Part shown: positions 237-43,483 of the stretch, piece after piece | Layout: each line of letters begins with the position of its first letter | How positions within the stretch are numbered: position 1 is the first letter of the stretch | DNA from: an uncultured Aquimarina sp. | Lineage (GTDB): Bacteria > Bacteroidota > Bacteroidia > Flavobacteriales > Flavobacteriaceae | DNA: 64,000 nt | NCBI GenBank assembly: GCA_947500845.1 | Contig: CANMTP010000003.1 | Location: forward strand, 186,001-250,000 | Reading direction: 5' to 3' | Translations under genes and position numbers: made by a program | Notes under the pieces: generated by a model | Told to the model about the DNA's origin: nothing | Database searches by the model: none | What the model saw: only the letters and a program-made list of their open reading frames with translations

Positions 237-365
237 GGAAAAAAACGACTACAAGATGACGAAGTCAATTATTTTGATAAAAAACATTGTAGTGCAACAA
301 AGCTTGTAGAAATAAACTTTCTTAATTGGTTAGTTTAAGCTATAATGAATAATAGTCTACGAATT

Positions 366-398
366 TTTGTAAAATGATTTTTTGATGAATTATATTTG
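366..398 (+). promoter_or_regulatory. Bacteroidota-type promoter for the CvpA-like gene
   Basis: A TTTG (-33 element) at 366-369 is followed, after 21 nt, by TATATTTG at 391-398. This matches the Bacteroidota primary sigma consensus TTTG-N19-21-TAnnTTTG. Transcription would start near 405, leaving a short leader before the ATG at 419. It is the best promoter match I found in the window. Confidence 0.7.
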
Positions 399-418
399 AA
401 GACAATTACCATTGATTA

Positions 419-916
419 ATGAATTACATTGATATTATTCTAGGGATACTTTTATTATGGGGAATGATAAAAGGCCTTAGTAAAGGATTATTTGCCTCCT
501 TAGCTTCTTTAGTTGCACTTATTGTAGGAATTTATATCGCTGTCCACTTTTCGCATTTTGCAGTAAGTTTTGTACGGCAATATGTAGATTGGTCTGAAGG
601 AGCTATGAAATTAACAGCTTTTGCTTTGACCTTTATTGTCGTGGTTATATTAGTCTCTTTGGCCGGCAAGTTATTAACGAAAATCGCAGATTACGCAGCT
701 TTAGGAATTCTAAATAAAATTCTTGGTGGTGCTTTCGGAATTCTAAAAATGGGATTTATTGCTAGCGTAATTATTATATTTATCAATGCTATAAATAGTA
801 ATATCACCTTCATCAAACAGGAAACACTAGATTCTTCCCTGCTATATCATCCAGTAAGTAGAATTGCTCCTGCTGTACTCCCTAGTGTATTAAAAGAAAA
901 CTCATCAAAAGAATAA
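419..916 (+). CDS. CvpA family membrane protein
   Basis: A 165-residue protein with four hydrophobic segments at roughly 5-25, 28-50, 65-85 and 100-123. The opening MNYIDIILGILLLWGMIKGL with the following GLFASLASL is typical of the CvpA (colicin V production) family, whose N-terminus carries a D-I-I/V-G..xGxxKG..G pattern. CvpA proteins sit in the inner membrane and have been linked to colicin export and envelope stress; the exact function in Bacteroidota is not settled. The gene stands alone behind its own good promoter and converges with the SulP gene downstream, with 22 nt between them. The ATG at 419 fits the start of the first membrane helix. Confidence 0.85.
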   Translation: MNYIDIILGILLLWGMIKGLSKGLFASLASLVALIVGIYIAVHFSHFAVSFVRQYVDWSEGAMKLTAFALTFIVVVILVSLAGKLLTKIADYAALGILNKILGGAFGILKMGFIASVIIIFINAINSNITFIKQETLDSSLLYHPVSRIAPAVLPSVLKENSSKE

Positions 917-938
917 TCTGTAGATGCTCTAAAAAGAA

Positions 939-2807
939 TTAAACTTGATCTGCATCAGGTACATCTTCTACTACGCTTTTTAAATATTCAATACTAGATT
1001 CAAAATCATCAAACACGCAATCTTCAGGCACGAGATCGGGGATGATATCGATACTTTTTGCAAGATATAAGGGTTGTTTTTGAATCCCAACAATATGAGT
1101 TTTAATTCCTTTTTGTTCTAGTCCCAGAATGATTTCTTCGAGCGTATACACTCCAGATTGATCCATATAGGGTACTCGATCCATTCTTAGAATAACATGC
1201 GTGGCTGAGTCGGGTATTTGCTTTGCTAGTTGTTGTAATTCGCTAGTCGATCCGAAAAATACCGGCCCGTTAAGATGTTTTATAAAAATTTCTTCTTTAA
1301 GTTCTTTTGGAAAACTACGTTCATCTTTCCATAATTGATTTAAATTATTACTCTTAAGACCCTGATAAGATTCTATCCGAGACTCACTAGCAGTAACATC
1401 TCCCATTTTTTTCATAAACGTTAAAGATGCTAAAACCAAACCTATACCAACCGCATATACCAAATCCCATACCACAGAAAGTACTAGAACGAGAAACATA
1501 ATAAGAACTTCTATTTTAGGCATGCTCGGGATAGCTTTCAACCCCCTATAGTCCATTACTCCAATCCCAACGGTAATTAAAATACCTGCAAGCACAGCGG
1601 CAGGAATTTGAGACGCGATGGGTCCCAAGGCTAATAAAACGACAAGTAATAGAACCCCTGCTATCATACCCGACAATCTTGTTTTACCTCCAGCATTAAT
1701 ATTCACCACTGTTCTAATAGTTGCTCCTGCCCCGGGGATTCCACCAAAAAACGCTGCAATACTATTTCCAATTCCCTGCCCCACCAATTCTTTGTTTGGG
1801 TTGTGTCTAGTCTTGGTCATATTATCAGCTACTACTGAAGTCAATAAAGAGTCTATGGCACCCAAAAATGCAAGTGATAATGCTGTAAAAATGTAAGGTG
1901 TAATGGCCATTAGACTGAAATCAGTAATTATCGTCAAATTAGGTATGGGAAATCCACTCGGAATTTCTTCGATAGGCCTGTATGGTAATCCAAAGCCGTA
2001 CGCTGCACCAGATACAACCAGCAATGCCACCAATGTGCTCGGAACAGCAGTAGTTATTCTTTTAAATCCGTAAATTATCACTATAGTAAAGACACAAAGA
2101 ATAAGTTCTAAATAATTTATATTCTTTATCGCTCTGGGAAGACTTTTTATTGCTCCTACAACCCCAGATGCATTACTTTGAGCAAGTGTTACGGCCTCTA
2201 GTCTAATTTCTTCTTCCGAAATATTTTCTGCTCTTTTGATAGTTTCTTTGAAATCTTCTAAGACAAGAATCCCTTCTCCTGCTTCCTCTTTAAGGATTTT
2301 ATCGAGAATTACCTCCTCGGCTTCTGGTTTAAATCTTTCTACGTATTCATCGTCCTCTTTAGGATAATATCCCAATGCCGGCAAAAATTGAGTGACTAAA
2401 ATCATCACCCCTATAGCGGTCATAAAACCAGACACCACCGGATAAGGAATATATCTAATGTATTTTCCAATACCAACTGCCCCTAAACCGATTTGCATCA
2501 AACCTGCCAGAAGGAACACTGTTAAAATTGCAGGTAATGCTTTATTTACGTCTCCATTATTCGCACCTATTAAACCAGCAATCACCAGCATGCTTACCGC
2601 TGTCATTGGTGCTGTGGGTCCGGAAATCTGAGTATTGGTTCCTCCAAAAAGAGCAGCAAAAAAGCTAATAAAAATTGCACCATATAATCCAGCACTTGGT
2701 CCTAGCCCAGAAGAAACCCCAAAAGCTAATGCCAATGGTAATGCAACAATTCCTGCAGTTAAACCACCAAAAGCATCTCCTCTAAGATTGCTAAAAAAAC
2801 CTTTCAT
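939..2807 (-). CDS. SulP family anion transporter with STAS domain (copy 1)
   Basis: I chose the ATG at 2807 (MKGFFSNLRGDAFGG, 622 aa); the frame also has a TTG four codons upstream. The first ~145 residues hold the conserved SulP core, including GLTAGIVALPLALAFG and QISGPTAPMT. The C-terminus (about 535-615) is a STAS domain with a DQSG motif. SulP proteins move sulfate, bicarbonate or other anions, and the carbonic anhydrase next door favours bicarbonate. An unusual charged, helical insertion of roughly 45-80 residues (about 150-230) lies between membrane helices and is absent from the second SulP at 3653-5239. A hairpin terminator lies between this gene and the carbonic anhydrase gene, so the two may be separate transcripts. 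Confidence 0.88.
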   Translation of the reverse strand: MKGFFSNLRGDAFGGLTAGIVALPLALAFGVSSGLGPSAGLYGAIFISFFAALFGGTNTQISGPTAPMTAVSMLVIAGLIGANNGDVNKALPAILTVFLLAGLMQIGLGAVGIGKYIRYIPYPVVSGFMTAIGVMILVTQFLPALGYYPKEDDEYVERFKPEAEEVILDKILKEEAGEGILVLEDFKETIKRAENISEEEIRLEAVTLAQSNASGVVGAIKSLPRAIKNINYLELILCVFTIVIIYGFKRITTAVPSTLVALLVVSGAAYGFGLPYRPIEEIPSGFPIPNLTIITDFSLMAITPYIFTALSLAFLGAIDSLLTSVVADNMTKTRHNPNKELVGQGIGNSIAAFFGGIPGAGATIRTVVNINAGGKTRLSGMIAGVLLLVVLLALGPIASQIPAAVLAGILITVGIGVMDYRGLKAIPSMPKIEVLIMFLVLVLSVVWDLVYAVGIGLVLASLTFMKKMGDVTASESRIESYQGLKSNNLNQLWKDERSFPKELKEEIFIKHLNGPVFFGSTSELQQLAKQIPDSATHVILRMDRVPYMDQSGVYTLEEIILGLEQKGIKTHIVGIQKQPLYLAKSIDIIPDLVPEDCVFDDFESSIEYLKSVVEDVPDADQV

Positions 2808-2865
2808 ACGATACCCCAATTTTCTTGAATAACAATAATAGTAAAACTATTGAGAAATAACACAT

Positions 2866-2900
2866 AAAAGCACCATCCCGATTATAGTGATGGTGCTTTT
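2866..2900 (-). terminator. Hairpin terminator after the carbonic anhydrase gene
   Basis: A perfect 12-bp stem (arms 2866-2877 and 2889-2900) encloses an 11-nt loop, with T/A runs on both sides. It lies 24 nt past the carbonic anhydrase stop and upstream of SulP copy 1, so it would end the carbonic anhydrase transcript. The flanking A/T runs would let it work in either direction. Confidence 0.75.
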
Positions 2901-2924
2901 TTGGGAAAAGTTTATGATTGACTT

Positions 2925-3554
2925 TTATTCGAAAAAGGTGACTTTTCCATCGTTTATATCATACATGCCACCAAGAATCAATATATCACCGCGATCTTCC
3001 ATTTCTCGAAGTACTTCGCTTTCTTTTCTAATATTATCTATTGTCATGTGTACGTTCTTTATGGCAACCTCATTCACAAAATCTATATTTTTTGAATTTC
3101 GTAATGTTGTATCAGTAGGTTCTTTAACGGCCGCAACAGCAGGTTTAATTTTACTAATAAGGGCAGTAAGATTACCCAATTGCGCATCATCACAAGCTCC
3201 TTTGATCGCACCGCAGCTGGTATGACCCAAAACCAGCACTAATTTGGTCCCTGCTAATTTACAAGCGAACTCCATACTCCCTAAAATATCTTCGTTTACA
3301 AAATTTCCCGCAACTCTTGCACTAAAAATATCTCCTATTCCCTGATCAAAAATCAATTCTGACGACACTCTCGAATCAATACAACTTAAAATCGTAGCAA
3401 AGGGAAATTGTCCACTTTTTGTATCACTTACTTGCTCTAGAAGATCTCTACCGGCTTTTTTATTCTTCAGAAATCTTTCATTTCCCTCTTTTAGAAGTTG
3501 AACTGCCATTTGTGGGGTTATTGCCGCTTGTGTTTCTTTGGTATGCGCTTTCAT
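2925..3554 (-). CDS. Beta-class carbonic anhydrase
   Basis: Converts CO2 and water to bicarbonate and a proton. The 209-residue protein has the beta-class zinc site: Cys58-x-Asp60-x-Arg62 (ILSCIDSR) and His111-x-x-Cys114 (GHTSCGAIKGA). The Asp-Arg dyad is intact. There is no signal peptide, so it should be cytoplasmic. It lies between two SulP transporters on the same strand, which suggests that bicarbonate uptake or export is coupled to CO2 hydration. Heterotrophic flavobacteria need bicarbonate for carboxylases, and the cluster could also serve pH control. The ATG at 3554 is the first in frame, and length and motif spacing are normal for the family. Confidence 0.93.
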   Translation of the reverse strand: MKAHTKETQAAITPQMAVQLLKEGNERFLKNKKAGRDLLEQVSDTKSGQFPFATILSCIDSRVSSELIFDQGIGDIFSARVAGNFVNEDILGSMEFACKLAGTKLVLVLGHTSCGAIKGACDDAQLGNLTALISKIKPAVAAVKEPTDTTLRNSKNIDFVNEVAIKNVHMTIDNIRKESEVLREMEDRGDILILGGMYDINDGKVTFFE

Positions 3555-3652
3555 CTGTTTTTATGTGTTATTTATATTGTAAAAAGAATTCCTAAATAAG
3601 CGATTGATACGAAAAACATTATTTGGACCTTCTCGTTTTATTTCTTAAAGTT

Positions 3653-5239
3653 TTATGTCGTCTTTGGCCTTAGTTTAAAAAATTCTATAAAACTGCTGGG
3701 ATTTTCAATCTCCCCTCTTTCTGAGATCAATTTAATATCTATATGCTTGTTTTTTGCTTTTTCTGAAAAATCCTCCAGAATTTCGATAATATCATTATCT
3801 AAATATCTTGTTTTTCTAACGTCTAATGTAAGATAAGTATCTTCTGGTAATTGATCAAGCTCCTTAAGGATAGCCCCTTTGTTAAAAAAGGTAACTTCTT
3901 CTGCTAAAGTCATCTTTACTCTATGTTTGCCATTGCTAACATCCTCGATATGCAGGAAGTGAGAATTTTGGTAGCTTTTTAAAAGAATAACAGCAATTCC
4001 TACCAAAAGACCCAGACCAATTCCTACTAAAAGATCTGTAAAAACAATCCCAACAACAGTTACCGTAAAGGGTAGAAACTGTTTCCATCCAAGTGTATAC
4101 ATTTTTTTGAATAATGCTGGTTTCGCTAATTTATATCCTACAATAAGCAAAACTGACGCTAAAACCGATAGTGGTATCATATTTAATAATCTAGGTATTA
4201 GAATCACCGAAATTAAAAGAAAGAAACCATGGATGATTGCAGACATTTTGCTTTTCCCGCCAGACTGAATATTTGCAGAGCTTCTTACTATTACTTGTGT
4301 AATTGGTAACCCTCCAATCATTCCAGAAATGATATTTCCCGTTCCCTGTGCCAACAACTCTCTGTTCGTAGGTGTTACGTGTTTTTCGGGATCTAATTTA
4401 TCTGTCGCTTCAACACATAAAAGTGTTTCCAAACTTGCCACTAAGGCAATAGTGAATGCTGTTACCCAAACATCTGTTCGACCTATAACAGCAAAATTAG
4501 GAAAACTAAACTGTCCTAAGAACGAAGACAAATCTCCTGGTATGGGTACACTAACCAAATGCTCTTGTGAGATAGCCAGGTTCTCATGATCTTTGGTGAA
4601 AACATAAAAAAGGATTCCTACTACAACAGCAACTAATGGCCCTTGTATTAGTTGAAAAATTTTAGCTTTTTTAGTCAAAACTTTATCCCATAAGATTAAT
4701 ATGCCGAGACCTATAATTGCAATGATAGTAGCACCAGGGCTAATAAAGTTAATCGAATTGATGATTTCTGAAAAGGTATTTTCTCCATCAACCTGAATGA
4801 AAGCAAAATCCCCTTCTGGATCGACATCATATCCAAAAAAATGCGGAATTTGTTTTAGAATGATTATAATTCCGATACCTGTGAGCATTCCTTTAATTAC
4901 TGAGGATGGGAAGTAATATCCGATAATACCAGCTTTTAAAATTCCAAAAACCAACTGGATAATACCACCGAGTACTACTGCAACCAAGAAATTTTCGTAA
5001 CCTCCCAGTGCAGCAATAGAACTTAATACTATAGCTGCCAAACCTGCTGCAGGCCCACTTACACCAATTTGAGAACCACTCAAGGCTCCCACAATAATTC
5101 CTCCTACGATTCCTGCGATTACTCCCGAAAATAGAGGTGCGCCACTTGCCAATGCAATCCCCAAACACAAAGGTAATGCTACAAAAAACACTACTATACT
5201 TGCCGGTAAATCATTTTTTAAATTCTTAAAAATGTTCAT
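3653..5239 (-). CDS. SulP family anion transporter with STAS domain (copy 2)
   Basis: A 528-residue SulP transporter. The N-terminal part has the conserved VVFFVALPLCLGIALASGAP and SGPAAGLAAIV segments, about ten further membrane helices follow, and a compact STAS domain occupies roughly 435-520. It lacks the long cytoplasmic insertion of copy 1, so the two are diverged paralogues and not a recent duplication. It lies 98 nt upstream of the carbonic anhydrase gene on the same strand and may be co-transcribed with it. SulP proteins of this subfamily are often annotated as sulfate permeases, but pairing with carbonic anhydrase makes bicarbonate the more likely substrate. Sequence alone does not settle this. 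Confidence 0.88.
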   Translation of the reverse strand: MNIFKNLKNDLPASIVVFFVALPLCLGIALASGAPLFSGVIAGIVGGIIVGALSGSQIGVSGPAAGLAAIVLSSIAALGGYENFLVAVVLGGIIQLVFGILKAGIIGYYFPSSVIKGMLTGIGIIIILKQIPHFFGYDVDPEGDFAFIQVDGENTFSEIINSINFISPGATIIAIIGLGILILWDKVLTKKAKIFQLIQGPLVAVVVGILFYVFTKDHENLAISQEHLVSVPIPGDLSSFLGQFSFPNFAVIGRTDVWVTAFTIALVASLETLLCVEATDKLDPEKHVTPTNRELLAQGTGNIISGMIGGLPITQVIVRSSANIQSGGKSKMSAIIHGFFLLISVILIPRLLNMIPLSVLASVLLIVGYKLAKPALFKKMYTLGWKQFLPFTVTVVGIVFTDLLVGIGLGLLVGIAVILLKSYQNSHFLHIEDVSNGKHRVKMTLAEEVTFFNKGAILKELDQLPEDTYLTLDVRKTRYLDNDIIEILEDFSEKAKNKHIDIKLISERGEIENPSSFIEFFKLRPKTT

Positions 5240-5379
5240 AGTTATAAAAATTTGTCGTTCTTCCCTATACTTAGGATTAAGAACAATTTGATAAAATAGA
5301 TTTGAAAAAGATTAGAAAAAAGGAATATCTTCTTTTGCAAAATAAGGACCACTTTTCGAATCAAATGACTAAAGATGTA

Positions 5380-5703
5380 CTATGAAAATTCTGGTGGAGG
5401 TGTATTCTTTTCAAGATATACCGAAGAATTGGGGTTAAATAGATCAGGATAAAAGCTATCCACTGAATCTATTAATGAAGAAACTCTATCATCGTTATTC
5501 TGAGAAATCTTATCTTTTTCTTTGAGGTCTTCCTTTTCTGAACTTTCCTTTTCTTTTTGTTCAGAACTTTCAGATTCTTCAATAGCAATAGAGGTCTGAT
5601 TGTCATCACTGTAAAAATTAATCAAAACAAGACCGTAATTTGAGATATTTAGAAGAAATCCCAAAACAATCAAGTACTTTGCTATGTATAACTTTATCAT
5701 CAT
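5380..5703 (-). CDS. Small membrane-anchored hypothetical protein
   Basis: A 107-residue protein I do not recognise. An N-terminal hydrophobic helix (about 5-30) is followed by a highly charged, Glu/Lys/Ser-rich stretch (about 40-72) and a short C-terminal tail ending in PPPEFS. It could be an N-anchored envelope protein or a secreted protein with an uncleaved signal. It lies 140 nt upstream of SulP copy 2 in the same direction, so it may open the SulP/carbonic anhydrase operon. The low-complexity middle makes its function hard to read. Start at ATG 5703 (MMIKLYIAKYL), with a second ATG at the next codon. Confidence 0.6.
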   Translation of the reverse strand: MMIKLYIAKYLIVLGFLLNISNYGLVLINFYSDDNQTSIAIEESESSEQKEKESSEKEDLKEKDKISQNNDDRVSSLIDSVDSFYPDLFNPNSSVYLEKNTPPPEFS

Positions 5704-30056: not shown

Positions 30057-30082
30057 AAAAAAAAGCGAACCTAGGTTCGCTT
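30057..30082 (-). terminator. Terminator of the Gly-Gly peptide gene
   Basis: The palindrome AAGCGAACCTAGGTTCGCTT (30063-30082) gives an 8-bp stem with CTAG at the tip. In minus-strand RNA it is followed by a U run (A run ending at 30062). It lies 10 nt past the peptide stop. Confidence 0.85.
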
Positions 30083-30092
30083 AATTATAAAA

Positions 30093-30305
30093 TTAACATC
30101 CTGTGTCTTCATATTCCAAACTTCCATCGATTGGACATGGTATAGAGCAAGGTTGTGTAATGAATATAGGAAACATACTGTTTCCCGGTCTAAAAATACA
30201 ACTACAACAATCATCAAAAATAGGAACTATCCCACCTCTTACAGACTTTTGCTCATTCTTACTTAGTTTTTTGGTGTTTTCGATGTTTAAAACTTTTTTT
30301 AGCAT
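30093..30305 (-). CDS. Gly-Gly leader, cysteine-rich secreted peptide (bacteriocin/RiPP-like precursor)
   Basis: A 70-residue peptide. The N-terminus MLKKVLNIENTKKLSKNEQK with SVRGG is a double-glycine leader of the type cleaved by C39-peptidase ABC exporters; the predicted cut is after Gly25. The core of 45 residues (starting IVPIFDD) has six cysteines (33, 34, 36, 53, 57, 70), which suggests disulfides or modification. Similar KKLSKxEQKxVxGG leaders are known in flavobacterial bacteriocin-like families. No exporter, C39 peptidase or modifying enzyme lies in the neighbourhood, so such partners would have to act in trans. The strong terminator directly downstream indicates a monocistronic gene. 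Confidence 0.75.
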   Translation of the reverse strand: MLKKVLNIENTKKLSKNEQKSVRGGIVPIFDDCCSCIFRPGNSMFPIFITQPCSIPCPIDGSLEYEDTGC

Positions 30306-30678
30306 ACTATTAAATTGGATTTGTTATAGTAATAAAGTTAAAAAATATTATGCCTAAATATCTAATTTTTAGAAAATTAAATTTCTTTCGCCAAATGTTT
30401 CGTCAAAATTGTTCTCTAGGTTGTAGAAACATAGTATATGGGATATACTTTTTAAGTGAAATTAGTTGGATTACACATTTAGCTTTAATTAATCATTCAA
30501 TGCTAAATTGAAAAAATCCCGACAATCATTTGGATTAATTCGAATAGATTTATTCGACTCTTTTTAGTTGCAAACCAAGAGTATTATTAAAAAGAAATCG
30601 CCCCAACAAGATTTCTCTTGTAGAGCGATTCCCAACTAAATAACCAACCAAAAAGTTAAATATTGTTTAGCGCGATCC
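30306..30678. other. Intergenic region upstream of the Gly-Gly peptide gene
   Basis: The 373-nt gap has no supported coding sequence. It should contain the peptide gene's promoter and leader (not identified; no exact TAnnTTTG on the minus strand) and ends with the terminator of the upstream lipoprotein gene (30591-30631). Confidence 0.6.
30591..30631 (-). terminator. Terminator of the lipoprotein gene at 30679
   Basis: Outer stem AATCGC/GCGATT (30596-30601 with 30625-30630) and inner stem ACAAGA/TCTTGT (30606-30611 with 30616-30621) make a two-part hairpin. The minus-strand RNA continues into UCUUUUU. It is about 50 nt past the stop of the 310-residue lipoprotein gene. Confidence 0.75.
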
Positions 30679-31734: not shown

Positions 31735-32730
31735 ATGGAAAAAAAACTAAAATTTGCGGTCCTTGGTGGTGGTAGTTGGGCTACCGCTATTGTAAAAATG
31801 CTAACTGAAAACCTTGATGAAGTTGGTTGGTACATGCGAAGTGTATATGCCCTTGAACATCTAAAAAGACAACAGCACAACCCTAATTACCTTAGTTCGG
31901 TAGAATTTAAATTAGAACAGCTAAAACTTACCAATGATATCAATGAAGCTGTGGCGTATGCAGATTATTTAATTTTTGCTATTCCATCGGCATTTTTGCA
32001 TAGTGAATTAGAAAAACTTACCGAGTCTTTAAAGGACAAAGTAATTTTTTCTGCTATTAAAGGGATCGTACCAGAAACTGGATTGATCGTTGGAGAACAT
32101 TTTCATGACGAATATAATATTCCATTCAATAATATTGGTGTAATAACAGGACCCTGTCATGCTGAAGAAGTAGCACTTGAACGACTTTCTTATCTTACCA
32201 TTGCTTCTAACGATGAAGAAAAAGCGAAGGTAATTGCTAAAAACTTAAGTAGCGACTATATCAAATGTAAAACCAGTGATGATATTATTGGTACAGAGTA
32301 TGCTGCAGTGCTCAAGAATATTTATGCTGTAGCTGCAGGAATTGCACATGGATTAGGATATGGGGATAATTTCCAAAGTGTTTTGATGAGTAATGCAATT
32401 CGTGAGATGAAGCGTTTCATTAAAAAAGTACATAAAATGAAACGCAACATTAACAACTCTGCATACCTGGGAGATTTGTTAGTGACAGGTTATTCTGTTT
32501 TTTCGCGTAATCGTATGTTTGGTAATATGATTGGTAAAGGATACACCGTAAAAAGTGCACAAATGGAAATGAACATGGTGGCCGAAGGATATTATGCTGC
32601 CAAAACAGCTTACGAAATGAAAGCTACCAAAAGTGCAAGAACACCTATTATAGATGCCGTTCATGATATTCTTTATGAAAACAAAAATCCCAAAAAGATT
32701 TTCAAGAAATTAGCAGAAAAATTAGACTAA
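31735..32730 (+). CDS. gpsA: Glycerol-3-phosphate dehydrogenase [NAD(P)+]
   Basis: Makes sn-glycerol 3-phosphate from dihydroxyacetone phosphate for phospholipid synthesis. The 331-residue cytoplasmic enzyme has the Rossmann GGGSWATAIVKML motif at about 10-22 (GxGxWA/GxA variant), FAIPSAFL near 84 and the catalytic Lys in EYAAVLKNIYAVAAGIAHG (about 188-206). SAIKGI is the conserved loop before the phosphate site. Length and motif spacing fit the Bacteroidota form. It is monocistronic, with a promoter candidate just upstream and a 226-nt gap after it. Confidence 0.92.
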   Translation: MEKKLKFAVLGGGSWATAIVKMLTENLDEVGWYMRSVYALEHLKRQQHNPNYLSSVEFKLEQLKLTNDINEAVAYADYLIFAIPSAFLHSELEKLTESLKDKVIFSAIKGIVPETGLIVGEHFHDEYNIPFNNIGVITGPCHAEEVALERLSYLTIASNDEEKAKVIAKNLSSDYIKCKTSDDIIGTEYAAVLKNIYAVAAGIAHGLGYGDNFQSVLMSNAIREMKRFIKKVHKMKRNINNSAYLGDLLVTGYSVFSRNRMFGNMIGKGYTVKSAQMEMNMVAEGYYAAKTAYEMKATKSARTPIIDAVHDILYENKNPKKIFKKLAEKLD

Positions 32731-32956: not shown

Positions 32957-33412
32957 ATGAAGAAACTCATCGAAACATTTTATACCGGTTTACGTGATCT
33001 TGATGCTGATAAAATGGTATCATGTTATCATAAAGATGTTGTTTTTGAAGATCCTGCCTTTGGAAAACTAGAAGGAGATCGAGCCAAAAACATGTGGCGT
33101 ATGCTTTGCCAAAATGCAAAAAATTTTAAAGTTGAATTTTCAGAGGTTGAAGCCAATGATCAAAAGGGCTCTGCACATTGGGAAGCTTGGTATACTTTTA
33201 GCAAAACAGGTAGACCAGTCCATAATAGAATTGATGCTCAATTTGAGTTTAAAGATGGGAAAATTATAAAACACATAGATCATTTTAACCTTCATCGATG
33301 GGCATCACAAGCTATGGGTTGGAAGGGTCAATTGCTGGGAGGCACAGGATTCTTTCAGAAAAAAATGATACAACAAACCAATCAAATGCTTGATAAATTT
33401 ATTGCTAATTGA
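32957..33412 (+). CDS. SnoaL-like (NTF2-fold) protein
   Basis: A 151-residue NTF2-fold protein: MKKLIETFYTGLRDLDADKM, CYHKDVVFEDPAFG and a long FEFKDGKIIKHIDHFNLHRW strand, then an extra C-terminal tail with RWASQAMGWKG. It is one of several small SnoaL-like proteins in this region. These fold into a cone that may bind a small ligand; no catalytic residue can be named with certainty. It is closely similar to the N-terminal part of the next gene, so the two look like a tandem duplication. ATG at 32957, 17 nt before the fusion gene. Confidence 0.82.
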   Translation: MKKLIETFYTGLRDLDADKMVSCYHKDVVFEDPAFGKLEGDRAKNMWRMLCQNAKNFKVEFSEVEANDQKGSAHWEAWYTFSKTGRPVHNRIDAQFEFKDGKIIKHIDHFNLHRWASQAMGWKGQLLGGTGFFQKKMIQQTNQMLDKFIAN

Positions 33413-33429
33413 TCTTTAATATATAACCC

Positions 33430-34746
33430 ATGAAGGAGCTCATCGAAACTTTTTACACTGCACTGGATGATCACGATGTTGATACCATGATGACCTGTTA
33501 TCATGACGATATTGTTTTTGAAGATCCAATCTTCGGAAAACTAGAAGCGGAAAAGGCTAAAAAAGTTTGGTACTGGCTTTGTGAGAACGGAAAAGATCTC
33601 ACCGCAAAATTTTCAGATATAACTGTAGATGGAAATAAAGGATCTGTTTACTGGGAGGCACGATATACCTTTGGCGACAGGAAAAGACCTGTTCTTAACA
33701 AAGTTCACACCACTTTTGAGTTTAAAGACGGAAAGATTATAAAACATAATGATCATTTCAGTCTAAAACGATGGGCTTCACAAGCTATGGGTTGGAAAGG
33801 TAAAGCTCTGGGCGGTACTTCTTATTTTAAAAAAAAATTGCAACATAGGTCTGGTCGATTATTAGACAAATTTCAAGTAAGATCTCATCCTAACACCAAT
33901 AGAAAATCAACTTTCGGCAGTCCTTTGGTTGATGTGCAATGGTTATCAGATCACTTAGATGACCCGGATTTAGTCATTCTGGATGCCACAATTAAAAAGG
34001 AGACTTCAAAATATAAAGACGATATCTCAAAATTCAAGATAAAAGATGCACTTTTTTTTGACATCAAGAATACATTTTCAGAAACAACTAGTGATCTCCC
34101 GAATATGTTACCTTCTCCCGAGTATTTTGAAAAGGCATGTCGTACCCTTGGTATTAGTTCCCATCACAAGATTGTGGTGTATGACAAATTAGGAGTTTAC
34201 TCTAGCCCAAGAGTGTGGTGGATGTTTAAAGCTATGGGGCATCGGGATATTGCTGTTCTTGACGGGGGGTTGCCGGCATGGAGACGTGCTAATCTACCTT
34301 GTATTATAGAAACTAAACCTGCCAGTCGAAAACCAGGTAATTTTAGAGCTATGTTCGATCCCAAGCTCGTAACGAACTCAAAAAATATACTCGATGAAAT
34401 GGATAATAAAAATACCTTGATTCTAGATGCCCGATCGCAAGGTAGGTTTTTGGCGAAAGAGGCAGAGCCAAGGAAAAACTTAAAGGGTGGACACATCCCG
34501 AATTCTTTAAATTTACCTTATACCAAGGTTCAACATGATGGTAAAATGCTTCCGGTCGAAGAGCTAAAAGAAATTTTTAATGATTTTAATCTTGAAAAGA
34601 AAAAACTGATCTTTACTTGCGGATCAGGAATCACCGCATGCATTATCATGTTAGCTGCAGAGCTCGCAGGATATCAAAATGTGTCAGTTTATGATGGTTC
34701 CTGGAGCGAATGGGGACAACTAGACGGTGTTCCTATTACTTGTTAA
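33430..34746 (+). CDS. SnoaL-like domain fused to a mercaptopyruvate sulfurtransferase
   Basis: A 438-residue fusion. Residues 1-148 form a SnoaL/NTF2 domain paralogous to the preceding gene (RWASQAMGWKG shared). A linker (about 149-160, QVRSHPNTNRK) leads into a two-domain rhodanese: inactive N-terminal domain at about 163-290 (STFGSPLVDVQWLSDHL) and catalytic C-terminal domain at about 310-436, with the active Cys397 in FTCGSGITACI. The CGSG[IV]TA loop marks a 3-mercaptopyruvate sulfurtransferase more than a thiosulfate one. Free-standing sulfurtransferases usually begin just before the STFGSPLV segment, so here the NTF2 domain has been joined in frame. ATG at 33430. Confidence 0.85.
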   Translation: MKELIETFYTALDDHDVDTMMTCYHDDIVFEDPIFGKLEAEKAKKVWYWLCENGKDLTAKFSDITVDGNKGSVYWEARYTFGDRKRPVLNKVHTTFEFKDGKIIKHNDHFSLKRWASQAMGWKGKALGGTSYFKKKLQHRSGRLLDKFQVRSHPNTNRKSTFGSPLVDVQWLSDHLDDPDLVILDATIKKETSKYKDDISKFKIKDALFFDIKNTFSETTSDLPNMLPSPEYFEKACRTLGISSHHKIVVYDKLGVYSSPRVWWMFKAMGHRDIAVLDGGLPAWRRANLPCIIETKPASRKPGNFRAMFDPKLVTNSKNILDEMDNKNTLILDARSQGRFLAKEAEPRKNLKGGHIPNSLNLPYTKVQHDGKMLPVEELKEIFNDFNLEKKKLIFTCGSGITACIIMLAAELAGYQNVSVYDGSWSEWGQLDGVPITC

Positions 34747-40516: not shown

Positions 40517-41620
40517 TTAAATCGCTTCAAATAACTTACCCGGTAAAGGTTTGATCACTCCTTTAAGCTCCATATTTAATAAAATAGAGGCGGCTTTGAA
40601 TGTTGGGATCTGGCACTGTAATGCAATGATATCTAACAATTCTTTTCCATTATTATTTAAAAAGGTATAGATTTTCTTTTCGTCACCCTCTAGTTCTACA
40701 AACAGCTTTTTCTGCACTGTGGGTTTCTCTTTTTCTTCTAACTCCCAGTTGAGCATATAGATTAAATCCACTGCATTAGTAAGCATATGGGCTCTTTGCG
40801 TTTTTATGAGCATATTACATCCCTTGCTTAGAGCATCATTTGCTCTACCAGGGACTGCAAATACTTCACGATTATATGAATTGGCAATATCGGCCGTAAC
40901 AAGCGAACCTCCTTTATCGGCACTCTCGATTACTACAGTAGCTTCACTAAGTCCTGCAATAATACGATTGCGGCCCAAAAAGTTTTTTCGATCAAAGGTA
41001 TCGGTACTCCAAAAATCTGTAAAAAACCCACCGTTTTCTTCAATCTGAGATACGTACTTTTTATGAGCTTTTGGATAGATTTGATTCAGTCCATGAGCCA
41101 AACAACCTATGGTTTGTAAATTGTGTTGTACTGCCGCTCTCTGTGCCGTAATATCAACTCCATATGCAAAACCCGATACAATAACGGGGTCGATAGGTGC
41201 AATAGCCTCGATCAATTCTTCACAAAACCGAACCCCATAGCTAGTGACTTTTCGAGTACCAACGATACTTACTATTTTCTTGTTTAGTAGATTGATATTT
41301 CCACGGCCAAAAAGTACTACAGGGCCATCAATACAATGCTTTAATTTTTCGGGATAATCAGGCTGGTCATATACCCAATAATTAATCTTGTTTTCTGTAA
41401 TAAATTCTAATTCATTTTCTGCGGCCTTACAATGACCTGGATTATGAAGATCCTTTATTTTTATAGCACCAATACCATCAATTTTTAACAAATTACTCGG
41501 TTTTTCAGCAAGAACTTCTTCTGCCGAACCTATTTCACGTATCAGTTTTTTGATAGAATTATCCCCTAGATTTGCTACTTTTTTGAGTCTAAGTAGTGCA
41601 ATTAGTTTTTCGACGGTCAT
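40517..41620 (-). CDS. dprA: DNA-processing protein DprA
   Basis: Loads RecA on incoming single-stranded DNA during natural transformation. The 367-residue protein has a N-terminal helix-hairpin region (about 1-70), the Rossmann-like DprA domain (about 80-290) with GTRKVTSYGVRF, SGFAYGVDITAQRAA, CLAHGLNQIYP and GGSLVTADIANSYNR, and a C-terminal winged helix (about 305-367). All the core motifs are intact, so it should work. The gene is divergent from the HU-CCDC81/SPOR gene. ATG at 41620. Confidence 0.93.
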   Translation of the reverse strand: MTVEKLIALLRLKKVANLGDNSIKKLIREIGSAEEVLAEKPSNLLKIDGIGAIKIKDLHNPGHCKAAENELEFITENKINYWVYDQPDYPEKLKHCIDGPVVLFGRGNINLLNKKIVSIVGTRKVTSYGVRFCEELIEAIAPIDPVIVSGFAYGVDITAQRAAVQHNLQTIGCLAHGLNQIYPKAHKKYVSQIEENGGFFTDFWSTDTFDRKNFLGRNRIIAGLSEATVVIESADKGGSLVTADIANSYNREVFAVPGRANDALSKGCNMLIKTQRAHMLTNAVDLIYMLNWELEEKEKPTVQKKLFVELEGDEKKIYTFLNNNGKELLDIIALQCQIPTFKAASILLNMELKGVIKPLPGKLFEAI

Positions 41621-41688
41621 GTAATATTTTATATGTCAACGCAAGAAACAAAAAAAAACAAAACTGTTAATAAATTTGTAAGCCATTG

Positions 41689-41719
41689 TTTTAATGACTT
41701 TCATTTTTTTTTACCTTTG
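41689..41719 (+). promoter_or_regulatory. Promoter of the CCDC81/SPOR gene
   Basis: TACCTTTG (41712-41719) is an exact TAnnTTTG. The -33 region at 41689-41692 is TTTT, 19 nt upstream, following TTG. A start near 41726 leaves about 40 nt of leader before the ATG at 41766. Confidence 0.5.
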
Positions 41720-41765
41720 GGTTCTAACCGCACACTGTTAAAACAGCATATTTTAGAAGGGGATA

Positions 41766-42767
41766 ATGAACAATACAGCCAAGTACATAAGCGAATTATT
41801 ATATAGATATGAATGTGTAATTTTACCGGGTTTTGGAGCATTTTTAACAAGACGTCAGCCAGCTGAGATTCAAGAATCTACCCATTCGTTTTTTCCTCCT
41901 CAAAAACTCATTTCGTTTAACAGTCAATTGAAAAATAATGATGGTTTATTAGCAAATTATATTGCTTCTTCAGAAAATATCTCCTATACCGATGCTGTAG
42001 CTAAAATTCAGCGTTATGTCTTGTACCTAAATGAAAAGATGGCACAAGGGCAGCGTTTAGAATTAGAGAATATAGGAGCGTTTTTTACCTCTGTAGAAGA
42101 CACTTTACAGTTTGAACCCTTGCAAGAAGTAAATTATCTTACTGAAGCTTTTGGATTACATACTTTTGTGTCCCCGACCATCAAACGTGAGATTAAGGTA
42201 AAGCGTGAAGCATATAAAGAAGAGGTTGAAGCTCTTGAAGAGGTTACTCCTCTAGCTTTTACGCCAGAAAAACGTCGTGAGCGTCCATATTTACAATACG
42301 CGGCAACCGCTGCTATCATCTTAGGAATTGGTGGGTTCTTTGGTTTGAAGCAAATTAGTGATAATACCATAAGCTACAACAATCAGGAGTGGAAAAAAGC
42401 TAATGCCGAAATTGAAAACAGAATTCAAGAGGCAACATTTGAGATTTCAAATCCACTACCAGCGATTACCTTAAATCTTACTAAAGAAGAATCGACTAAG
42501 ACTGCTGAATCGAAAAATGAATCTGAGGTCGTAACAGGAAAATATCATGTTGTTGCTGGTGCTTTTAGAATTGCATCAAATGCCGATAAAAAAGTGAGAA
42601 AACTTAAAGCTAAAGGTTTTGATGCACGTCTTATCGGGGTAAACAAATATGGTCTTCATCAAGTGGTTTATCAAAGTTACTCAGATCGAATAGAAGCATT
42701 ACAAGCACTTCGAAAAATAAAAAGAGAGGAAAGTCCAAGGGCCTGGTTATTGGTTCAGGAACTCTAA
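41766..42767 (+). CDS. HU-CCDC81-like and SPOR domain membrane protein
   Basis: A 333-residue protein with an N-terminal HU-CCDC81-like domain (about 1-125; ISELLYRYECVILPGFGAF), a single membrane helix at about 175-195 (YAATAAIILGIGGFFGL) and a C-terminal SPOR domain (about 255-333; YHVVAGAFRIASNADKKVRK and a closing WLLVQEL). SPOR domains bind denuded glycan strands at the division site, so this is a predicted envelope/septum protein of a type common in Bacteroidota. The HU-like part may bind DNA or form filaments. Divergent from dprA. Confidence 0.85.
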   Translation: MNNTAKYISELLYRYECVILPGFGAFLTRRQPAEIQESTHSFFPPQKLISFNSQLKNNDGLLANYIASSENISYTDAVAKIQRYVLYLNEKMAQGQRLELENIGAFFTSVEDTLQFEPLQEVNYLTEAFGLHTFVSPTIKREIKVKREAYKEEVEALEEVTPLAFTPEKRRERPYLQYAATAAIILGIGGFFGLKQISDNTISYNNQEWKKANAEIENRIQEATFEISNPLPAITLNLTKEESTKTAESKNESEVVTGKYHVVAGAFRIASNADKKVRKLKAKGFDARLIGVNKYGLHQVVYQSYSDRIEALQALRKIKREESPRAWLLVQEL

Positions 42768-42946
42768 TTTCTTATATTTTTTCTTTCAAAGAAATGTAGA
42801 CAACATTTCATTATTTTTAAGATTTTTTTCGTTTTTTATTGATATTCGTACTTTTTGAATAAAATCTACACCAAATTCGCATTCAAGCAATTTTTCAAGT
42901 AATACACTTTTATTCTACTGTATAGTAATAGTTATTTCTGCGTGAT

Positions 42947-42954
42947 TATCTTTG
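42947..42954 (+). promoter_or_regulatory. Possible -7 element for the thioesterase gene
   Basis: TATCTTTG is an exact TAnnTTTG, 19 nt before the ATG at 42974. A clear -33 TTTG is missing at the usual distance. Confidence 0.35.
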
Positions 42955-42973
42955 CCAAAAAAATACACTGTAT

Positions 42974-43483
42974 ATGAAAGCCAGGCACCCATCGGAATCT
43001 CTTGCTATACTTACCGATTTTGTACTAACCGGAGAAACTAATTCTCTAAACAACCTATTTGGCGGAGAGCTATTGGCTCGAATGGACCGTGCTGCTGGTA
43101 TTGCTGCTGGCAGACATTCAAGAAGAGTTGTAGTTACTGCATCTGTGAACCATGTGGCTTTCAATAAAGCAATTCCGTTAGGTAGTGTTGTAACTGTAGA
43201 GGCAAAAGTTTCAAGAGCTTTTACCTCGTCTATGGAAGTATATATTGATGTTTGGGTAGAAGATCGTCAAAGTGGAGATAAGACAAAAGCCAATGAGGCT
43301 ATTTATACCTTTGTTGCCGTAAATGAATCTGGGAATCCAGTAGAGGTGCCTCCAATAGAACCTCAGACCGATCTCGAAAAAGAACGATATGATGCAGCCT
43401 TGCGTCGCAAGCAACTTAGCCTAGTACTTGCCGGTAAAATGAAACCAAATGATGCTACAGAGTTAAAGGCATTATTCATCTAA
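42974..43483 (+). CDS. Acyl-CoA thioesterase (hotdog fold, YciA-like)
   Basis: A 169-residue hotdog enzyme that splits acyl-CoA to free acid and CoA. Key stretches are NNLFGGELLARMDRAAGIAA, the helix-containing motif of the acyl-CoA hydrolase family, HSRRVVVTASVNHVAFNKAI and EAKVSRAFTSSMEVYIDVW. The acidic residue after the helix (LLARMD) is the expected general base. It is cytoplasmic and its chain length preference is unknown. No close partner; the small membrane peptide follows 92 nt later. Confidence 0.87.
   Translation: MKARHPSESLAILTDFVLTGETNSLNNLFGGELLARMDRAAGIAAGRHSRRVVVTASVNHVAFNKAIPLGSVVTVEAKVSRAFTSSMEVYIDVWVEDRQSGDKTKANEAIYTFVAVNESGNPVEVPPIEPQTDLEKERYDAALRRKQLSLVLAGKMKPNDATELKALFI

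Follow-up and report, generated by a model that had tools for sequence, protein, structure and literature searches.

What does a lone gene for a small cysteine-rich peptide with a double-glycine (GG) leader produce when the DNA around it offers no exporter, and by which machinery might the product be processed? The gene lies in a stretch of 64,000 nt from an uncultured Aquimarina sp., which is referred to here as the window. The initial annotation had described it as an orphan leader peptide gene closed by a strong terminator, and this description holds. The open reading frame at 30093-30305 is present on the minus strand (start at 30305) and encodes 70 residues with Cys at positions 33, 34, 36, 53, 57 and 70, a GG at 24-25 and a core of 45 residues, while the plus-strand frame is interrupted by stops. 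Past the stop codon, at 11-30 nt, comes an 8-bp hairpin with a T run behind it (region fold z -2.1). The features of the locus are as follows.

30093..30305, minus strand: coding sequence of the six-Cys, GG-leader peptide (70 residues) with its stop codon (an orthologue in 18 of the 66 genomes of the genus; dN/dS about 0.12)
30231..30305, minus strand: leader, residues 1-25, MLKKVLNIENTKKLSKNEQKSVRGG (G24, G25, L14 and Q19 identical in 18/18 orthologues)
30096..30230, minus strand: core, residues 26-70 (six Cys, net charge -5; predicted beta-hairpin 33-38 / 47-52)
30063..30082, minus strand: intrinsic terminator hairpin, then T run (similar hairpin after 17 of the 18 orthologues)
30333..30340, minus strand: TAACTTTA box, located 28-35 nt upstream of the ATG within a partly conserved stretch (upstream alignment of 18 orthologues)

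The TAACTTTA box may be the -7 element of a promoter of the Bacteroidetes type (TAnnTTTG). The window has 45 ORFs of 55-100 aa that start with ATG; the peptide gene is the only one of them to encode at least six Cys, and it also has a GG at 15-35; moreover, it is the only window ORF that matched the leader model at E < 0.1.

Orthologues were searched in 140 genomes, including 66 of the genus Aquimarina with the window's own genome among them. Full-length orthologues were found in 18 of these 66 genomes, all within the genus, and the 17 other than the window peptide share 57-80% identity with it (E 6.6e-22 or better). A similar six-Cys peptide was detected in one other genus. The six Cys, the GG and the stretches ITQ, PCP, DG, EY and TGC are identical in 18/18 orthologues. 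The dN/dS of the gene was about 0.12 over the 18 orthologues (NG86 with JC; leader 0.13, core 0.12), a rough figure since synonymous change is close to saturation (pS 0.62); in four non-identical orthologue pairs with pS < 0.45 it was 0.06-0.20. The frame is under purifying selection, which together with its unique Cys and GG content among the 45 window ORFs rules out a chance ORF.

All 17 other orthologues occupy a common syntenic site, between a lipoprotein gene, named from its sequence as no family matched, and a gene for 3-hydroxyanthranilate dioxygenase (HAO) or aldehyde dehydrogenase: HAO adjoins the peptide gene in 15 of the 17, and aldehyde dehydrogenase does so directly in two. A mobile bacteriocin island is ruled out by these same flanking genes. 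Of the 48 genomes of the genus that have no peptide gene, 40 were examined at this site as well. There the lipoprotein was kept near the site in 29/40, and both neighbours, without a peptide match between them, were present in 12/40; the 11/40 stretches without a lipoprotein match say little. This persistence in peptide-lacking genomes rules out the lipoprotein as a dedicated immunity protein. On the tree of the gene at 31735-32730, which we take to encode glycerol-3-phosphate dehydrogenase, presence of the peptide changes 8 times (58 genomes; G021 and G055 were left out as incomplete and G031 for want of a match). Because the orthologues share one site despite these 8 changes, the simplest reading of the distribution is an old gene with repeated loss. 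Elsewhere in the window, 33430-34746 is occupied by one ORF of 438 aa with homologues of about 283 aa in relatives; its additional N-terminal segment is similar to the adjacent gene at 32957-33412, as if a copy of that gene had been fused to what we take to be a rhodanese-like protein.

The closest relatives of the core share the pattern C-x-C-[IV] ... C-x3-C-[PE]-(x)-D-G with the window peptide, and Cys34, 36, 53 and 57 as well as D60 and G61 are invariant in 36/36 sequences. Cys33 and Cys70 behave as a pair: among 41 distinct sequences, hand-chosen as the C-x-C...C...C(P/E)DG core type, both are present in 20, both absent in 21 and one alone occurs in none. Similar cores with other Cys spacing (L124, L220, L233, L252) fall outside this count. 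The pattern corresponds to two coincident changes on a weakly supported peptide tree. Since the two residues covary, a Cys33-Cys70 disulfide is suggested. A structural model of the peptide, built with 36 sequences, reached a mean pLDDT of 76, with 85-91 in the blocks from residue 31 on, and places a predicted hairpin at 33-38/47-52. When the PDB was searched with the peptide by fold and by sequence, no match at E up to 0.001 and no Z of at least 2 came up; a Pfam search returned one match below the cut-off, and NCBIfam searches assigned it no function.

Substrates of peptidase-containing ABC transporters (PCATs) have a consensus of GG, L-12, E-8, L-7 and a hydrophobic residue at -4, as given in the excerpt of PMC6363468. 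The window peptide carries GG, L-12, E-8 and V-4, with Gln instead of Leu at -7. This Gln is found in 18/18 orthologues; GG, L-12 and V-4 fit the consensus, and E-8 fits in the window peptide. Using a leader profile built from 21 sequences, we found 14 matches in the window's own genome (E up to 0.1) and up to 48 in relatives, these counts being lower bounds where candidates were partly scored (e.g. 99 of 131 in G001). An ORF with the leader could be read for 13 of the 14; a few leaders end in GA, GS or the like rather than GG, and 5 of 187 leader hits have no recognisable leader end. At least one leader match at E up to 0.01 is present in 46/61 genus genomes. The cores behind these leaders are mutually unlike and Cys-rich; in a non-redundant set of 97, the Cys count is even for 80. 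The proposal of an undescribed small system therefore erred in scale, as the window peptide is one of 14 leader matches in its genome. Three identical leader peptides (L124-L126), counted among the 14, stand in tandem, about 264 bases apart, on another contig of the same genome (C26, 6167-6869); their core is loosely like that of the window peptide and has another Cys spacing.

The three places in the genome that match Peptidase_C39 all lie outside the window, which bears out the statement that no C39 exporter is encoded there. Comparison of the window with the exporter, adaptor, VKOR and LanC-like proteins gave a single match, at 62288-61608 (27% over 237 aa), which is probably another ABC ATPase. 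The genome-wide search for a C39-peptidase ABC exporter, which had been proposed as a check, yielded two complete PCATs, both outside the window. One of them, on contig C5 (C39 peptidase plus ABC), adjoins a gene for an HlyD-type adaptor and has no leader gene within the surrounding 19.9 kb, nor is there one near the VKOR gene of this genome described below. With two PCATs in the genome and leader homologues across most of the genus, the refutation that had been envisaged, absence of both an exporter and homologues with a conserved GG leader, does not apply, and a processed peptide exported in trans, one of the options originally listed, is favoured.

An orthologue of the C5 PCAT (at least 82% identity) was found in 45/61 genus genomes, and 44 of these 45 have at least four leader matches; of the 16 genomes without it, 14 have no leader match and 15 fewer than two. 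This co-occurrence is strong when kinship is left uncorrected (Fisher 3.6e-12 with a threshold of two leader matches), but it comprises 2-4 independent tree pairs and is not significant with kinship, being mostly one deep clade split. Genomes without the C5 orthologue can hold other PCATs of 71-75% identity (G007 75%, G003 73%, G013 72%), and 7 of the 16 are less than 90% complete. Individual genomes depart from the pattern: G039 has the exporter and the VKOR protein and no leader match at the cut-off; leaders are present in G013 and G047, which lack an 82% exporter orthologue; and in G003, placed inside the exporter-bearing clade with moderate branch support, there is no leader match and the best PCAT reaches 73%. 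Residues that we take to form the C39 active site are intact in 15 aligned PCAT sequences, 13 of them from the C5 orthologue group. The C5-type exporter is present in 17 of the 18 peptide-bearing genomes.

The region around the exporter was annotated in 12 relatives, and in four of these it encodes, at a distance of a few kb at most, GG peptides that contain Cys and carry a leader of another type. Peptides of this other type near the core exporter (L157, L159, L160, L162) have leaders such as MKKDFLNRIKEARLLSKEESKTISGGYGG. They show that the neighbourhood of the C5 PCAT handles Cys-containing GG peptides. They also weaken the link of this exporter to the window leader, since its own or main cargo may be the other leader type. 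The second PCAT, on contig C33, is also a possible exporter of the window peptide. It belongs to a row of genes at 355-5546 of that contig encoding a LanC-like protein, the PCAT, an HlyD adaptor and two GG peptides, one without Cys and one with a single Cys, which could not form several thioether rings.

The genome also encodes a protein that combines VKOR with thioredoxin domains and weakly matches C39. Its VKOR domain matched PF07884 with 57.1 bits (cut-off 27.5) and its thioredoxin part PF13462 with 33.3 bits (cut-off 23.2); the VKOR Cys 193, 201, 268 and 271 and the thioredoxin Cys 381 and 384 are invariant in 41/41 sequences. The protein occurs in 47/61 genomes, of which 45 have at least two leaders, as opposed to none of the 14 genomes without it, and it is present in 18/18 peptide-bearing genomes. 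In 24 of 40 relatives a leader gene lies less than 400 nt downstream of the VKOR gene on the same strand, compared to 0.03 expected under random placement; the other 16 have no downstream leader gene, and the count excludes 2 of the 42 first-form VKOR genes (G024, G047). The first downstream leader gene has the core type of the window peptide in 6 of the 24. A second VKOR form, 28-33% identical, directly precedes the C5-type exporter in 8/45 genomes, four of which were seen in full.

The N-terminus of the VKOR protein (residues 1-155, alignment of 41 sequences) is predicted to adopt a C39 fold (pLDDT 84, pTM 0.75). Foldseek placed the model closest to ComA (best E 3.8e-5), and VIA-align matched it to PCAT1 with substrate (Z 13.2; 3.2 A over 122 residues), to LahT with leader peptide (Z 12.8) and to the HlyB C39-like domain (Z 10.6). 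Papain-like toxins and other papain-fold proteins also match this fold (Z 7-11). The 41 sequences have no Cys column in this region, L223 having one Cys and L237 two at unshared places. In sequence comparisons the N-terminus scored 19.4 bits against Pfam C39 (cut-off 22), or 22.2 in the genome search, a profile-profile comparison with PCAT C39 domains was not significant (probability 1.1%), and a PDB sequence search listed an unrelated PC4/SFRS1-interacting protein first (0.00026) and a C39 protein at E 1.3. The C39 assignment, which draws on the predicted fold, is tentative; sequence methods alone do not suffice for it. With the topology usual for bacterial VKOR proteins, this N-terminal domain would lie in the cytoplasm and the oxidase in the periplasm, an arrangement in which the domain could keep its grip on the leader during oxidation of the core.

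Altogether, we infer that the gene product is a precursor whose 45-residue core is matured and exported in trans to give a secreted peptide with disulfide bonds, a reading to which we give a probability of about 0.65. Its leader would serve as a PCAT-type signal. A PCAT encoded elsewhere, most likely the genus-wide C5 protein, together with the adjacent HlyD-type adaptor, would cut after the GG and export the core, and the membrane VKOR-thioredoxin protein would form the disulfides. The six Cys would give three bonds, 33-70 being one of them. The Cys-less C39-like domain of the VKOR protein probably docks the same leaders, and the same machinery may serve the other scattered leader-peptide genes. 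The more specific proposal of a leader-guided disulfide-forming enzyme, in which the catalytically inactive C39 domain would recognise GG leaders on the cytoplasmic side, the VKOR-thioredoxin oxidase would oxidise the emerging cores and the oxidase together with one core PCAT would serve a dispersed genome-wide repertoire including the window gene, is held tentatively, at slightly under even odds.

Concerning the role of the released peptide, we regard antagonism and signalling as having about equal odds, and either is compatible with the export mechanism. It might be a class II-type bacteriocin or microcin of the bacteroidetocin kind that kills related Bacteroidetes, which we rate at somewhat less than an even chance. 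The GG leader, the Cys-rich core of similar size and the occurrence of a C39 exporter and a thiol oxidoreductase in the genome are as expected for it, and the size and diversity of the whole leader-peptide repertoire fit antagonism. Bacteroidetocins also seem to have no immunity protein, as far as the excerpt of PMC6671954 shows. Against killing, the core is acidic (net charge -3 to -6 in 18/18 orthologues) and strongly conserved rather than diversifying, the gene occupies a single site and its presence varies over the tree, no exporter or oxidoreductase gene adjoins it, and the upstream lipoprotein, persisting where the peptide is lacking, does not behave like a dedicated immunity protein. 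Because the core is acidic and conserved and has no dedicated immunity neighbour, a diversifying bacteriocin in particular is less likely. The acidic core, its conservation, the single orthologue at a fixed site and the absence of an immunity-like neighbour suit a conserved role outside the cell no less well than killing.

Such a role could be that of an extracellular signal, a pheromone sensed within the genus, which we consider possible, if nearer to improbable than to probable. Purifying selection extends over the whole core, each genome has one orthologue copy, and the acidic peptide is probably not membrane-active. However, no sensor is found among the named neighbours, and 48 of the 66 genus genomes are without the peptide, which would be odd for a shared signal.

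A lanthipeptide or other enzyme-modified RiPP, made by LanB-type or other enzymes of the genome, is very unlikely. A search for such enzymes had been proposed, and candidates do exist, namely two LanB-type proteins, one SPASM protein and a LanC-like protein beside the C33 PCAT; nothing found here ties them to the peptide, and none of their genes adjoins it. The LanB-type dehydratase genes are located at 41120-43084 of the window's contig and at 41198-43111 of contig C24, not near the peptide gene. LanB precursors were looked for within 1.5 kb. Another leader type that was observed, MKKxxLxxLxLNKKxIS..., resembles that of LanB substrates. Furthermore, the only invariant Ser/Thr of the core in the 18 orthologues are Thr50 and Thr68, and two such residues versus six Cys speak against lanthionine rings; the even Cys numbers that dominate the family are those expected for disulfides. 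A small intracellular metal-binding protein with a fortuitous GG, suggested by the abundance of Cys, is the least probable alternative, given that the leader has dozens of homologues in front of unlike cores and that the core is without any C-x2-C pair.

If the reading of a disulfide-bonded peptide exported in trans is correct, Aquimarina would secrete tens of small disulfide-bonded peptides, and cluster-based mining would tend to miss them, as many of their genes have no adjacent exporter or enzyme. An oxidase that binds leaders through a domain of its own would couple disulfide formation to the export of peptides in a new way. As a first case the window peptide would serve well, with its conserved core and a Cys pairing that gives a clear prediction. 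Among the matches listed in searches of the open-licence literature, by title and start of the abstract, we found no paper on a VKOR protein with GG-leader peptides or on the window peptide family; likewise, none among the matches listed dealt with lone genes served by machinery in trans or with a C39-like domain on an oxidase.

The best family match of the window peptide is the NCBIfam model NF047798 (leader_Chryseo, 'bacteriocin-like protein'), which describes leaders of like build ending in GG. The match, with 18.1 bits and E 0.0022, is below the curated cut-off of 23.5; 17 of the 21 members of our alignment A1 match the model at E up to 1 (best E 0.00097). NF047798 is a leader model of 18 positions and is silent on export, oxidation and function. 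The organisation resembles that of the cyanobacterial prochlorosins, where one machinery acts in trans on many unlike cores behind one leader type; prochlorosins carry lanthionines, whereas the window family would carry disulfides. Substrates of the PCAT/AMS type such as ComC, CtA and LahA, as presented in the excerpt of PMC6363468, are akin to the window peptide in L-12, E-8, V-4, GG and an exporter with intact C39, and differ from it at -7, where the orthologues have Gln. The C39-like domain (CLD) of HlyB, as outlined in the excerpt of PMC8277102, has a C39 fold without the catalytic Cys and recognises cargo, but it sits on the ABC transporter, whereas the C39-like fold proposed here is predicted on a VKOR-thioredoxin oxidase.

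The bacteroidetocins (proposed class IIf) come close in several respects. According to the excerpt of PMC6671954 they are Bacteroidetes peptides with a GG leader and Cys, a C39-type exporter, a thiol oxidoreductase and no evident immunity protein, and deletion of the thiol oxidoreductase attenuates toxin activity. Their leaders have 15-16 aa and bacteroidetocins A and B four Cys, compared to 25 aa and six Cys in the window peptide. Their cluster comprises four adjacent genes for a TM protein, the peptide, the oxidoreductase and the exporter (PMC6671954, excerpt). Unlike these, the window gene, with neither an exporter nor a VKOR protein encoded in the window, stands alone, and its likely machinery is encoded elsewhere in the genome.
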